Positions 29,553-36,711 of a stretch of 37,597 nucleotides of DNA are shown here, one piece after another. Location: NCBI GenBank assembly GCA_017418945.1, contig JAFOMI010000043.1, positions 1 to 37,597 of the forward strand, in the 5' to 3' direction. Source of the DNA: Bacilli bacterium (GTDB lineage: Bacteria; Bacillota_I; Bacilli_A; RF39; UBA660). The stretch's first letter is position 1. Each line of letters begins with the position of its first letter. The notes beneath the pieces were generated by a model. That model was not told the origin of the DNA. It saw only the letters and a list, made by a program, of their open reading frames with translations, and ran no database searches. Made by a program: the position numbers and the translations under genes.

Positions 29553-29990
29553 CTATAAATACTTTTTTAATTCTTCAATTATATCTTTTTCAAACTTATA
29601 AAATTTCTTAGCGTATCTTAAATCTCTAAAAGATAAAGAATCTTTATAATTACTTATTTTTTGTTCCATATTAATGCTTCCCATGGAAATACCTTGTATT
29701 AATAAATCAGCCATATGAGAATCACTATTATCTGTTAAAACTTCTTTTTTAATACCCATATTTGCCATCATTTTAGCCATAAAACCTTCTTCTTCTAAAG
29801 ATACTTTATTCTTTAATAAAACCTTTTTAGAATGCTTTCTATAATTAATAAATTCTTTTAATATATAATCTAAAATATCCTTTATCTTATTATCTTTATT
29901 TTTTAGATCTTTCTTTAATTCTTTAATTGTAGATACACTCATATCACTATCTTGATATATATGTTTATATATTTCTATTTTTTCAACCAT
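29553..29990 (-). CDS. Hypothetical helical protein next to rubrerythrin, 145 aa
   Basis: Predicted to be a bundle of four or more helices, with no membrane segment or signal. Residues with metal-binding potential occur in SHMADLLIQGISMGSINMEQ, a pattern that recalls four-helix ferritin-like proteins with a DUF2383-like look, but the Glu/His set needed for a diiron site is not convincing. The ATG has AGGAGG upstream. It lies 56 nt after rubrerythrin, separated by a terminator. I cannot assign a function. Confidence 0.55.
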   Translation of the reverse strand: MVEKIEIYKHIYQDSDMSVSTIKELKKDLKNKDNKIKDILDYILKEFINYRKHSKKVLLKNKVSLEEEGFMAKMMANMGIKKEVLTDNSDSHMADLLIQGISMGSINMEQKISNYKDSLSFRDLRYAKKFYKFEKDIIEELKKYL

Positions 29991-30032
29991 AATATTCCTC
30001 CTAGTAATAGTATGGCTAAAAATTTAAAAAAT

Positions 30033-30064
30033 ATAAAAAAGAGTGATTAATAATTTTCACTCTT
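30033..30064 (-). terminator. Terminator after rubrerythrin
   Basis: Stem AAGAGTGA / TCACTCTT (30039-30046 with 30057-30064), 10-nt loop, six T residues on the minus strand; overlaps the stop codon. Confidence 0.7.
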
Positions 30065-31683: not shown

Positions 31684-32373
31684 TTACCTTCTTTTAATTC
31701 TATCTTTATATAAATTTAGATATTCATTAATCTTACCTGTTTGTCTAAACGGTAAAACAAATGAATATTTTTCATGGGCATTAGTTTGAATATCCTTTAT
31801 ATGCATTTTAAGTTTTTCATAAATAATATCAATATCATTATTTTTAGCGTATTTCTTAATTTTCTTATATAACTTAGATGAATAGAAATAATCAATAACA
31901 ATAACTCCTGAAAATATACCAAGGATATATGAAAATGAAATATTTTGACTAAACCAATTAAGCGCACGTACTACTCTTTCAGATATAAATAAATAATATA
32001 TTGCGCCCATCATAATCCATATCATAGTAAATAAAGGACAAATTACACCTTTATAATTAAATTTTCTATCTCTATAATCCCATAATCTAACACCTTGTTT
32101 TAAGAATATTAATCCTCCTACTAACTCTAAAAGAGTAATACTAAGACCTATTAATATAACTTGATATATTGGAAGAATATTATATTTTTCAAATATCATA
32201 TGAATTAAAGTCATTATTGTTAAACTAAATCCATATATAGGTAAATAAGGTCCTACTAAAAAACCTGGATTAACCCATTTACCATGTACTATTCTTCTAA
32301 AGAATAATTCTAGTACCCATCCAAAAGTACTTCCTATAAAGAATATAAATACAAATGTCAAAAACATATTCAT
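31684..32373 (-). CDS. CmpB-family (putative ABC transporter type IV) membrane protein
   Basis: Membrane protein of 229 aa with about five hydrophobic segments. It has the conserved N-terminal block IGSTFGWVLELFFRRIVHGK then NPGFLVGPYLPIYGFS, which defines the PF06541-type CmpB family. Despite the family name, a transport role is unproven, and no partner ATPase is adjacent. The C-terminal 50 residues are cytoplasmic and charged. The ATG has GGTGAT upstream, with an extended -10 promoter before it. It is cotranscribed with the DUF2974 hydrolase. Confidence 0.85.
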   Translation of the reverse strand: MNMFLTFVFIFFIGSTFGWVLELFFRRIVHGKWVNPGFLVGPYLPIYGFSLTIMTLIHMIFEKYNILPIYQVILIGLSITLLELVGGLIFLKQGVRLWDYRDRKFNYKGVICPLFTMIWIMMGAIYYLFISERVVRALNWFSQNISFSYILGIFSGVIVIDYFYSSKLYKKIKKYAKNNDIDIIYEKLKMHIKDIQTNAHEKYSFVLPFRQTGKINEYLNLYKDRIKRR

Positions 32374-32407: not shown

Positions 32408-32444
32408 AAAAAAAGATGTAAATATACATAAATTTACATCTTTT
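32408..32444 (-). terminator. Terminator after clpB
   Basis: Stem AAAAGATGTAAAT / ATTTACATCTTTT (32411-32423 with 32432-32444), 8-nt loop, T-rich tract on the minus strand. Confidence 0.75.
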
Positions 32445-34537
32445 TAACGGACTTTAAATATATAATCTTTATCATAATCAATGACTATAACATCATTATA
32501 TTTGATTTCTGATGATAAAATCATCTTAGAAACTTTAGTTTCAATTATTCTTTGAACATATCTTTTTAATGGTCTAGCACCAAAATTTGGATCAAATCCA
32601 TTTTCTATAATAGCGTCTTTTGCTTTATCAGTTAATTCAAATTTAATATTTAAATCTTTTAATCTTTCTTCAATTCCTCTAATTAATTTATCTAAAATTA
32701 ATCTTATAGAATCTCTACCTAAAGAATCAAATGTAATTATTTCATCAATTCTATTTAAGAATTCTGGTCTAAAATAATTATGTAATTCTTTATTAACTTC
32801 ATCTTTTTTTCCTTCAAGTATTAAATCACTTCCAACATTACTTGTCATAATTATAATAGTATTTTTAAAATCTACTAATCTTCCTTGTGAATCAGTAATT
32901 CTACCATCATCTAGTATTTGTAAAAGTAAATTTAATACTTCAGGATGAGCTTTTTCTATTTCATCAAATAAAACTATACTATATGGATTTCTTCTAACTT
33001 TTTCAGTTAATTCTCCACCTTCTTCATATCCTACATATCCTGGAGGTGAACCAATTAATCTACTGACACTAAATTTTTCCATATATTCAGATGCATCTAT
33101 TCTAACCATATGCTTTTCATCATCAAATAATTCATACGCAAGAGTTTTTGCAACTTCTGTTTTACCAACTCCAGTTGGACCTAGGAATAAGAATGATCCA
33201 ATAGGTCTATTAGGATCTTTAATACCACTTCTAGATCTAATAATAGCATCACTAACAAGTTTTAGTGCTTTATCTTGACCCATAACTCTTTTTCTCATAT
33301 TATCTTCTAAATTTAATAATTTTTCTCTTTCAGAAGATTGTAATTTAGAAACAGGAATATTAGTCCATTTAGAAATAACATTAGTAATATCTTCACTTGT
33401 AATTGTATTACTTAATATCTTATTATTACTTTTTTCTTTTAAATCCTTTAATTCTTCTTCTAGTTTTGGAATCTTACCATGACGAAGAACTGCTGCTGTT
33501 TCTAAATCATACTCATTTTCAGATTTTTCAAGATCAAATTTAGCTTGTTCTAATTCTTTCTTTTTAATATTAATTTTATTATTAATTTCTTTTTCTTCTT
33601 CCCAAGATTTCTTTAATTTAGATTCTTCTTCTTTTAAAGAAACTAGTTCTTTTTCAATTTCTTCTCTTCTATTTTTAGATAATTCATCTTTTTCTTTCTT
33701 TATTGCTTCTTTTTCAATTTCAAGTTTCATTATTTTTCTTGAAATACTATCTAGTGAAGTTGGAACCGAATCCATTTGCACTCTTAATCCAGCGCATGCT
33801 TCATCTACTAAATCTATTGCTTTATCTGGTAAAAATCTATCTGTAATATATCTATTTGATAGAGTTGCTGCTGAAATTAAAGCTTTATCTAAAATAGTAA
33901 CACCATGATATATTTCAAATCTTTCTTTTAATCCTCTTAATATTGTTATAGTATCTTCTACAGTTGGTTCACTTACAATTATTTTTTGAAATCTTCTTTC
34001 AAGTGCACCATCTTTTTCTATATAAGTTCTATACTCATTTAAAGTAGTTGCACCAACAACATGTATTTCACCACGTGCAAGTAAAGGTTTTAAAATATTT
34101 GATGTATCCATAGCACCTTCTACCGCTCCTGAACCTACAATTAAGTGAATTTCATCTATAAACATGATTATATCACCATTAGATTTTTTAACTTCATTTA
34201 ATACATTTTTTAATCTTTCTTCAAATTCACCCCTATATTTAGCGCCCGCAACTAATGAAGCCATATCAAGTTCCCATACAGTTTTACCTTTTAAACTTTC
34301 TGGCACATCGCCTTTAATAATTCTTAAAGCAAGACCTTCAACAATAGCGGTTTTACCAACACCTGGTTCTCCTATTAATACAGGATTATTCTTAGTTTTT
34401 CTTGATAATATTCTAGTAATATTTCTTATTTCTTCATCTCTTCCAATTACTGGATCTATCTTTCCTTCTTTTGCTGCTAAAGTAATATCACGTCCGTATT
34501 TTTCAAGAACATTCTCATTTTCTTCTTGATTAAACAT
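32444..34537 (-). CDS. clpB: ClpB-type disaggregase without N-terminal domain
   Basis: Hexameric AAA+ chaperone that pulls proteins out of aggregates with DnaK. Two nucleotide-binding domains are present: Walker A GEPGVGKT at 56-63 with pore loop KYRGEFE at 100-106, and Walker A GPTGVGKT at 453-460 with GYVGYEEGG. Between them a long charged coiled coil (about 260-380) is the ClpB middle domain, which separates it from ClpC and ClpA. No ClpP-binding IGF loop was recognised. The usual 140-residue N-domain is missing: the protein starts with a short linker at [11 protein letters not shown]. The ATG has AGGGGTGAT upstream, so this is not a misplaced start. A CIRCE element overlaps its promoter, implying HrcA repression relieved by heat. 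Confidence 0.94.
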
Positions 34538-34559
34538 ATTATCACCCCTAACAAGATTA

Positions 34560-34587
34560 ATTATACTACTATTTTAGCACTTGTCAA
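34560..34587 (-). promoter_or_regulatory. Promoter of clpB
   Basis: Minus-strand -35 TTGACA (34582-34587) and -10 TATAAT (34560-34565) with a 16-nt spacer. The -35 lies within the CIRCE spacer. Confidence 0.75.
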
Positions 34588-34600
34588 TAGTGAGTGCTAA
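34574..34600. promoter_or_regulatory. CIRCE element (HrcA operator)
   Basis: TTAGCACTT-N9-GAGTGCTAA, one mismatch from the consensus TTAGCACTC-N9-GAGTGCTAA. It overlaps the clpB -35 region and ends 2 nt before the -35 of the divergent gene, so HrcA bound here could affect both directions. The hrcA gene is not in the window. Confidence 0.93.
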
Positions 34601-34602
34601 TT

Positions 34603-34631
34603 TTGACAAAAAAAGACTTTTGTGCTATAGT
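34603..34631 (+). promoter_or_regulatory. Promoter of the divergent membrane-protein gene
   Basis: -35 TTGACA (34603-34608) and -10 TATAGT (34626-34631) with a 17-nt spacer, directly beside the CIRCE element. Confidence 0.7.
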
Positions 34632-34658
34632 ATAAAGCCGAGAAAAGGGGGATATTAT

Positions 34659-35867
34659 ATGAAAATAATACCTGTTAAAAAAATATTAAAAAATATAAAT
34701 TCTTTAAATAAAAATCCTAAAAAAAATATTGATACTATAAAAAGATATAGAGAATTATTAGTTGAACAAAAAAAATTAATAGATTCAATTACATTAAATT
34801 CTATTAACGAAAAATTAAAAGACTCTAATATTTCTTATGAAGAATATAATAATTATAAAAATATTCTTAATGAAAAAAAGAATTACAAAAAATATAATGA
34901 TGAAATAACTTCAATAATTAATAATGATTATAGTAATATTAAGAAAAGAAAATTAGATTTACATTGTAATAAAGCAGAACTAGCTCTTGCAACAAGTTTT
35001 GCATTCTTCTCATTATTACTTGCTCATAAAAACATTAGTAAAGCTTTAGGTAGAAATGATAATAAAGAATACAATACTACTGAATATAATACAGTAACTG
35101 AAAATAAAACAGATAAAACAATTGAGGAAGAAATTACTGAAGCTTCTACTACACCAATTATAATTCCTGATGAACCTGTTAAAGAATTATATTCAGAATA
35201 TAAAACCGAAAATAAAGCAGAAGTAACTACTACTGAAGCTACTACTAATAAAGTAACAGAAAAACCTACTGAGATTGTTTCTGAAAAAATAGAAACTGAA
35301 CCTGAAACAATTACTGAAAATACAACTGAAGTAAAATTTAATGATGACTTTGTATTTACTGATAAAGCAGGCGATGCTTATAATTTAATTAGTGATTTTG
35401 ATGATAAAATATCCTCTTATGAAGAAATAATAACTGATAAAGATAAAAGAAAAGAAACTGTTGATAAAGCTAAAAAAGAAGCTAAAGAAAAATCTATAGA
35501 ATTAATTGATTTTGTATTCTATGGTAAAGAAATAAATGGTATGACTTTCGATGAATTAAAAGATGATCAAAAAGAAAAAGTATATCAAGAATTACAAAAA
35601 TTAAATAATACTATAAGTAAATATGATCCAGATTATTTAGATAACTTAGGAGAAAGATATCAAAGACTTAAAGGTTTTGGTTCTTTAACTCTTAATAAAG
35701 CTAAAGAAAAGATTAAAAAGACAGTTGGAGAAGACTATTATAATGCTGCTGGTGAAGTAAAAGATGATATAAAAGATAGTGTTAAAGATACTGGTAAAGT
35801 ATTAAAGAACATAATAAGTGATAAATATCAAAACTGGAGAAATAAAAATACTGAAGAAGATAATTAA
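34659..35867 (+). CDS. Single-pass membrane protein with Thr/Glu-rich linker, 402 aa
   Basis: I do not recognise this protein. From the chosen ATG (AAGGGGG upstream) it has a charged helical N-terminal part (about 1-105, probably cytoplasmic), one membrane helix (about 107-123) preceded by KKRK, a low-complexity Thr/Glu-rich stretch (about 139-225, with repeated TTE, TEN and TEKP elements), and a charged, mainly helical tail (about 226-402) rich in Lys, Asp and Glu. By the positive-inside rule the tail should be outside the cell, with the linker crossing the wall. No LPXTG or cell-wall binding motif is seen. It is monocistronic, with a terminator; divergent from clpB across a CIRCE element, so it may be part of the stress response. 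Confidence 0.6.
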   Translation: MKIIPVKKILKNINSLNKNPKKNIDTIKRYRELLVEQKKLIDSITLNSINEKLKDSNISYEEYNNYKNILNEKKNYKKYNDEITSIINNDYSNIKKRKLDLHCNKAELALATSFAFFSLLLAHKNISKALGRNDNKEYNTTEYNTVTENKTDKTIEEEITEASTTPIIIPDEPVKELYSEYKTENKAEVTTTEATTNKVTEKPTEIVSEKIETEPETITENTTEVKFNDDFVFTDKAGDAYNLISDFDDKISSYEEIITDKDKRKETVDKAKKEAKEKSIELIDFVFYGKEINGMTFDELKDDQKEKVYQELQKLNNTISKYDPDYLDNLGERYQRLKGFGSLTLNKAKEKIKKTVGEDYYNAAGEVKDDIKDSVKDTGKVLKNIISDKYQNWRNKNTEEDN

Positions 35868-35897: not shown

Positions 35898-35913
35898 TTA
35901 GATGGTGATTATT

Positions 35914-36711
35914 ATGGAAATAAATAAATTATTAGAAAATGAATGGGTAGATAAATCAATTAAAGTACTAATAACAATTATTATTAGTTTAATTATATAT
36001 TCTATAGTTTCTAGCATTATAAAAAAATATTCAAAAAGAGATAAGCTAGAAAAATTAGCGGGTAAAAAAACTACTACATACATTAGACTAGCTCGCAGTA
36101 TAACAAGATACTTATTTATATTATTAACATTTTTAATAATACTTGAAATACTTGAAATAAATATTACTTCAATTATTGCGGGAGTTGGATTATTTGGTGC
36201 AGTATTTGGACTTGCTCTTCAAGACTTTATAAAAGATATAATAAGAGGAACAACTATATTATCCGATGACTATTTTAAAGTCGGTGATGTAGTTAAATAT
36301 AAAGATATAGAAGGTAAAGTATTAATACTTGGGCTTAAAACTACTAAAATAAAAGACTTAAAAACAGGTAATACTATTTCTATCGCAAATAGAAATATTG
36401 ATGAAATAGAAGTAGTATCTAAATATGTTTATGTTAATATTCCAATGCCTTATGAAGTTAATGTTGATAAAGCTGAAGAAGTAATTAATAAAATAGTAAA
36501 TGATATAAAAGAAAATAATAAAGTAGAAGAATGTACATATAAAAGTGTTAATGAACTTTCTGAAAGTAGTATTCTATATTTATTAGAAATAACTACTAAT
36601 CCAATTAATAAAAGACAAGTTAAAAGAGATGCATTAAAAATAATACTTACTGAATTTGAACAAAATAATATTGAAGTTCCTTATAATCAATTAGATATAC
36701 ATCAAAAATAG
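35914..36711 (+). CDS. MscS-family mechanosensitive channel
   Basis: Small-conductance mechanosensitive channel of 265 aa that releases osmolytes on osmotic downshock. Three hydrophobic segments (about 15-35, 60-80, 85-110) end in the Gly/Ala-rich pore helix IAGVGLFGAVFGLALQDFIKD, followed by the beta domain (FKVGDVVKYKDIEGKVLILG) and a cytoplasmic alpha/beta cage domain. It resembles the short YkuT-type members. The ATG at 35914 is chosen because GGTGAT lies 5 nt upstream and covers the alternative start. It has its own -10 box and a bidirectional terminator. Confidence 0.93.
   Translation: MEINKLLENEWVDKSIKVLITIIISLIIYSIVSSIIKKYSKRDKLEKLAGKKTTTYIRLARSITRYLFILLTFLIILEILEINITSIIAGVGLFGAVFGLALQDFIKDIIRGTTILSDDYFKVGDVVKYKDIEGKVLILGLKTTKIKDLKTGNTISIANRNIDEIEVVSKYVYVNIPMPYEVNVDKAEEVINKIVNDIKENNKVEECTYKSVNELSESSILYLLEITTNPINKRQVKRDALKIILTEFEQNNIEVPYNQLDIHQK

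Follow-up and report, generated by a model that had tools for sequence, protein, structure and literature searches.

The closest described counterpart of the locus analyzed here is the HrcA/CIRCE regulon of the Firmicutes and Mollicutes, in which clpB carries a CIRCE element in Mycoplasma gallisepticum and Spiroplasma melliferum, according to excerpts of two reports (PMC4245973, PMC5138195). The excerpted text of PMC545781 describes no CIRCE between divergent genes, and our literature search found no report joining a bidirectional promoter, HrcA, and CIRCE. The window, a stretch of 37,597 nucleotides from an uncultured Bacilli bacterium (contig JAFOMI010000043.1 of assembly GCA_017418945.1; 867,836 bases, 85% complete), has a CIRCE between minus-strand clpB and a divergent gene, here termed X, and combines a known operator and a known target with an unrelated neighbor (Table 1). 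A sequence-only reading of this locus proposed that HrcA could control both genes, which would make X a heat-shock protein of the cell envelope.

Table 1. Features of the clpB-X locus, in window coordinates.
Feature	Position	Strand	Basis
CmpB-like membrane protein (PF06541)	31684-32373	-	directly downstream of clpB; direct neighbor of X in relatives without clpB
clpB, 697 aa, without N-domain	32444-34537	-	TIGR03346 positions 148-849 of 853; Pfam AAA, AAA_2, ClpB_D2-small
clpB -10 TATAAT	34560-34565	-	promoter scan
CIRCE operator (predicted HrcA binding site)	34574-34600	.	single mismatch to the consensus; 0.01 expected by chance per window
clpB -35 TTGACA	34582-34587	-	within CIRCE; promoter scan 12/12; embedded TTGAC(A) likewise in 80/80 named clpB loci
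X -35 TTGACA	34603-34608	+	2 nt outside CIRCE; aligns with TTGACT of relatives
X extended -10 (TGc TATAGT)	34623-34631	+	promoter scan
X ribosome-binding site GGGGGA	34647-34652	+	read directly; AAAGGGGG leader also in G001, G003, G008
X, 402-aa single-pass membrane protein, conserved C-terminal domain, without Pfam or NCBIfam family	34659-35867	+	sequence prediction, family searches
MscS-type channel	35902-36711	+	downstream of X; order alike in G001

The CIRCE operator and the promoters of clpB and X

The CIRCE (TTAGCACTTGTCAATAGTGAGTGCTAA) has a single mismatch to the consensus TTAGCACTC-N9-GAGTGCTAA, and it is the sole copy in the window at three or fewer mismatches. The predicted clpB promoter comprises the TTGACA within this element (34587 to 34582), a 16-nt spacer, and TATAAT (34565 to 34560), for 12 of 12 consensus matches; that of X comprises TTGACA, a 17-nt spacer, an extended TG, and TATAGT (34626-34631), for 11 of 12. 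The two -35 boxes lie back-to-back, 15 nt apart, and these coordinates agree with the geometry originally read from the sequence, in which the operator overlaps the clpB -35 and stops 2 nt short of the divergent TTGACA. Promoter-like matches are no more frequent in the stretch than in shuffled sequence (11 observed vs. 13.2 expected), so the case for both promoters rests on their position, and for X on conservation as well. The ATG that we take as the X start codon is preceded by GGGGGA; the TTG at 34581, which was the choice of the ORF caller, is an unlikely start, as it falls inside the CIRCE.

The match of clpB to TIGR03346 begins only at profile position 148, with a score under the cut-off. 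Across the taxonomic family, full-length clpB matches correspond to open frames of some 700-733 aa, which suggests that a clpB without the N-domain is usual there. The genome (G000) also has hrcA (C64:42703-43341; PF01628, 153 bits, E 3.8e-45) with its own CIRCE at 43697-43723, and the assembly contains just two CIRCE elements at three or fewer mismatches, before clpB and before hrcA. Among related uncultured Bacilli, a CIRCE with at most two mismatches precedes clpB at all 80 named loci and at 30 of the 31 loci of a second genome-search set (the exception being L057), although the two sets may overlap. At each of the 80 named loci, the clpB -35 lies at CIRCE position 14 (TTGACA in 78, TTGAC in 2) and is followed 16 or 17 nt on by a TATAAT-like box; an opposite-strand TTGAC within the CIRCE occurs in none of them. 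With an operator of at most two mismatches at the promoter, hrcA in the genome, and CIRCE-clpB kept in relatives, control of clpB by HrcA/CIRCE, as earlier proposed, is well supported by these comparisons. Judged by its sequence, the window CIRCE is an ordinary HrcA operator, concealing the -35 of the gene that it is predicted to control.

Protein X and the conservation of its promoter

The description of X as a Thr/Glu-rich membrane protein proved apt: a single membrane segment is predicted at about residues 103-126, and threonine and glutamate make up 43% of the linker at residues 131-230. A Pfam search with X returned no families, and an NCBIfam search returned one match, scoring 14.7 bits where the cut-off is 130; assignment to an existing family was rejected, as all matches fall below curated cut-offs and many are low-complexity. 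In an alignment of 25 relatives, the C-terminal region is conserved (consensus IDFIFYxxxIxGxTFxEL), and a profile of this X family hits 68 of the 117 genomes in the taxonomic family. Many of these hits are weak and low-complexity, and 45 genomes have hits of at least 65 bits. Because 12 of the 25 aligned proteins have a lipobox-like motif near the N-terminus, the conserved domain is probably extracellular. By contrast, X of the window and of three genomes of the same genus (G001, G003, and G008) is anchored by a membrane segment that follows some 100 probably cytoplasmic residues. Our best guess for X is an extracytoplasmic, envelope-associated role. A single-sequence model of the C-terminal domain was all helical, with a mean pLDDT of 50, and was too poor for a fold search. 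A 443-aa paralog elsewhere in the genome (G000:C60:46534-47865; L030, L141) shares only the N-terminal part and membrane segment of X and lacks its C-terminal domain; a gene for a predicted lipoprotein comes after it.

Across the 117 genomes, a strong X-family match occurs in 45, a full-length clpB in 78, and both in 39. The two genes are adjacent in only one of those 39, the window genome itself, and share a contig at 8.6-25 kb in three others. None of the 80 named clpB loci, examined with up to 4 kb of flank at E 1e-5, includes an X-family gene. A CIRCE scan of 56 X-family loci (up to 1.5 kb of flank each, some cut by contig ends) identified an element only at the window copy; after removal of duplicate loci, 38 distinct other X-family genes have no CIRCE within about 1.5 kb. 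Among the 12 genomes of the genus, clpB is present in two (the window genome and G011), and X itself has no match in G002, G005, G007, G010, or G011. In each of six others (G001, G003, G008, G004, G009, and G006), a member of the X family, either X or a shorter gene, is divergent beside a cmpB-like gene, with neither clpB nor CIRCE between them. The divergent gene is thus not conserved beside CIRCE-clpB in related genomes, which leaves the idea of X as a heat-shock protein of the envelope unsupported.

The X promoter itself is retained in these relatives. We divided the spacer into a CIRCE half (34538-34602) and an X half (34603-34658, the core promoter and leader), and evaluated alignments of each against 1000 dinucleotide shuffles per genome. 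In alignments with the regions upstream of X in G001, G003, and G008, the X half outperforms every one of the 1000 shuffles each time, with the -35, 17-nt spacer, TG, and -10 in register. The CIRCE half aligns no better than shuffles with G001 (439/1000) and G008 (188/1000), and somewhat above chance, if weakly, with G003 (17/1000), where the best CIRCE match upstream of X has 8 of 16 arm mismatches. For the six genomes together, the best CIRCE matches in front of X or a shorter relative have 6-8 of 16 arm mismatches and are no better than in shuffles. A decayed CIRCE in G001 was rejected, given 8 of 16 arm mismatches there and the alignment result above. Lineages lacking clpB therefore keep X and its promoter without a CIRCE at X, although each has CIRCE at another place in its genome; this is the pattern expected of a bystander.

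Gene order and history of the locus

The window order is X<>CIRCE-clpB-cmpB-Mbeg1-rubrerythrin-145 aa-phosphoketolase, that of G001 is X<>cmpB-Mbeg1-rubrerythrin-239 aa-CIRCE-htpG-hsp20-145 aa-phosphoketolase, and that of G011 is CIRCE-clpB-cmpB-Mbeg1-rubrerythrin-CIRCE-htpG-hsp20. In a locus tree built from two linked genes, CmpB and Mbeg1, the window genome and G001 are sisters (support 1.000); the window genome and G011 are not, yet they have clpB-cmpB in common. The G001 spacer resembles the window clpB-cmpB spacer (0/1000 shuffles as good) and includes what may be a vestige of the clpB terminator (9/1000 shuffles). Since clpB-cmpB is common to non-sisters and the G001 spacer has this likeness, including part of the terminator, we favor an ancestral clpB that was lost from most of the genus; the direction, loss rather than gain, is an inference from these comparisons, and transfer is possible.

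The CIRCE-htpG-hsp20 cassette of G001 (L127:9660-12950, from rubrerythrin to the 145-aa gene) is absent from the window, which is contiguous at the matching place (29990-30047). In the window genome, at 85% assembly completeness, there is no match to HSP90, which 5 of the 12 genus genomes have, nor to HSP20, which it alone of the 12 lacks.

Opposed promoters at CIRCE in other genera, and whether HrcA controls X

A directed pattern (CIRCE, then a divergent TTG...TA...T within 1-4 nt) was matched in 15 of 386 genomes. The divergent gene is of CmpB type in five (G056, G228, G315, G322, and G390) and encodes a protein of 288-296 aa in three (G019, G303, and G122); the proteins at loci L264 and L265 match Fic/DOC, and that at L267 is their homolog. 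The remaining genomes have a 457-aa ORF (G116), a glycosyltransferase (G038), the window itself, or, in four cases that are probably chance matches (G329, G204, G187, and G242), no divergent gene. Of 110 clpB loci that form an unselected set (L032-L061, L092, and L177-L255), 13 show a divergent gene no more than 250 nt away, and the best divergent promoter lies at most 4 nt from the CIRCE in 8 of these 13. Single-base shuffles give a mean of 2.9, and a count of 8 is reached in 2 of 1000. Six of the eight tight cases belong to one CmpB-type family and another is the window, so their independence is poor; one of the eight, L247, is very weak.

The CmpB-type (PF06541) genes with a -35 2-3 nt past the CIRCE were observed at L234, L238, L239, L242, L245, and L250, and in the five genomes named above; the window and G011 differ, each having its CmpB-like gene immediately downstream of clpB. 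Genes for a Fic/DOC-type protein, some 290 aa long, occur repeatedly next to clpB and its CIRCE, at L264, L265, L267, L271, L272, L276, L283, L285, and L291; they are divergent in some genera and same-strand upstream in others.

From these observations, we consider it probable that the CIRCE serves HrcA as an operator for clpB only, and that X is a bystander with its own promoter. HrcA bound to the CIRCE would cover the clpB -35 and dissociate upon heat shock, as it does in the known regulon, whereupon clpB would be induced. X would be an older neighbor of the cmpB-Mbeg1-rubrerythrin block, presumably expressed constitutively from a sigma-A-type promoter of its own for which the CIRCE is not needed, and the clpB-CIRCE unit, which sits between X and cmpB here, would probably have disappeared from there in most members of the genus. 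The retention of this start signal without CIRCE in relatives makes X most likely a chance neighbor. The earlier proposal of dual HrcA control accordingly divides, its clpB part holding and its X part not, even though the 2-nt geometry is real and control in this one species is possible. The form that such control might take is HrcA occupying roughly positions -64 to -38 in the X promoter and excluding contacts of the polymerase alpha and sigma subunits, so that X and clpB would both be repressed and X heat-induced in this species. The position of the X -35, the directed-pattern matches, and the excess of tight divergent promoters in the unselected set all speak for it, but the tight cases come mostly from one family and were evaluated with single-base shuffles, and a shared compact spacer accounts for the tightness. 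Moreover, the operator stops upstream of the -35 and leaves the promoter core of X uncovered, whereas at all 80 named clpB loci the operator encloses the -35 under its control; together with the relatives that have X and no CIRCE, this makes dual repression unlikely. HrcA could nevertheless still touch RNA polymerase at the X promoter, its -35 being so near.

The back-to-back spacing of the -35 boxes would also suit polymerases that exclude each other at the two promoters, such that the heat release of clpB lowers X, but the X promoter of relatives operates with no such neighbor, and we regard this competition as highly improbable. The tight geometry recurs with other divergent genes and so may be meaningful. 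At its broadest, a single CIRCE enclosing the clpB -35 would repeatedly serve a second back-to-back promoter in this Bacilli family, with its -35 1-4 nt outside, and would draw X, CmpB-type, Fic/DOC, and glycosyltransferase genes into the heat-shock response by position alone; we consider this quite doubtful. Compact spacers are a sufficient explanation of the geometry. Returning to the bystander reading, nearness to an operator is not enough to place a gene in the regulon, as G001, the closest relative at this locus, keeps X and its promoter without CIRCE.

In comparison with the HrcA/CIRCE regulon of the Firmicutes and Mollicutes, as far as the excerpted reports describe it, the window genome has in common a consensus operator, hrcA, an operator in the clpB promoter, and a small regulon of chaperone genes. 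It differs in that the CIRCE encloses the clpB -35 with a second, divergent promoter 2 nt outside, and in the lack of an HSP90 or HSP20 match. The CmpB-CIRCE-clpB loci from other genera of the same family also resemble the window, with a -35 2-3 nt past the CIRCE, a 17-nt spacer, and an extended -10; their divergent gene is a different one and, unlike X, is kept beside CIRCE-clpB in several genomes. These loci and the Fic loci are better cases than X for asking whether one CIRCE can govern two opposed promoters, and this recurrent two-sided layout is the part of the present analysis worth passing on.
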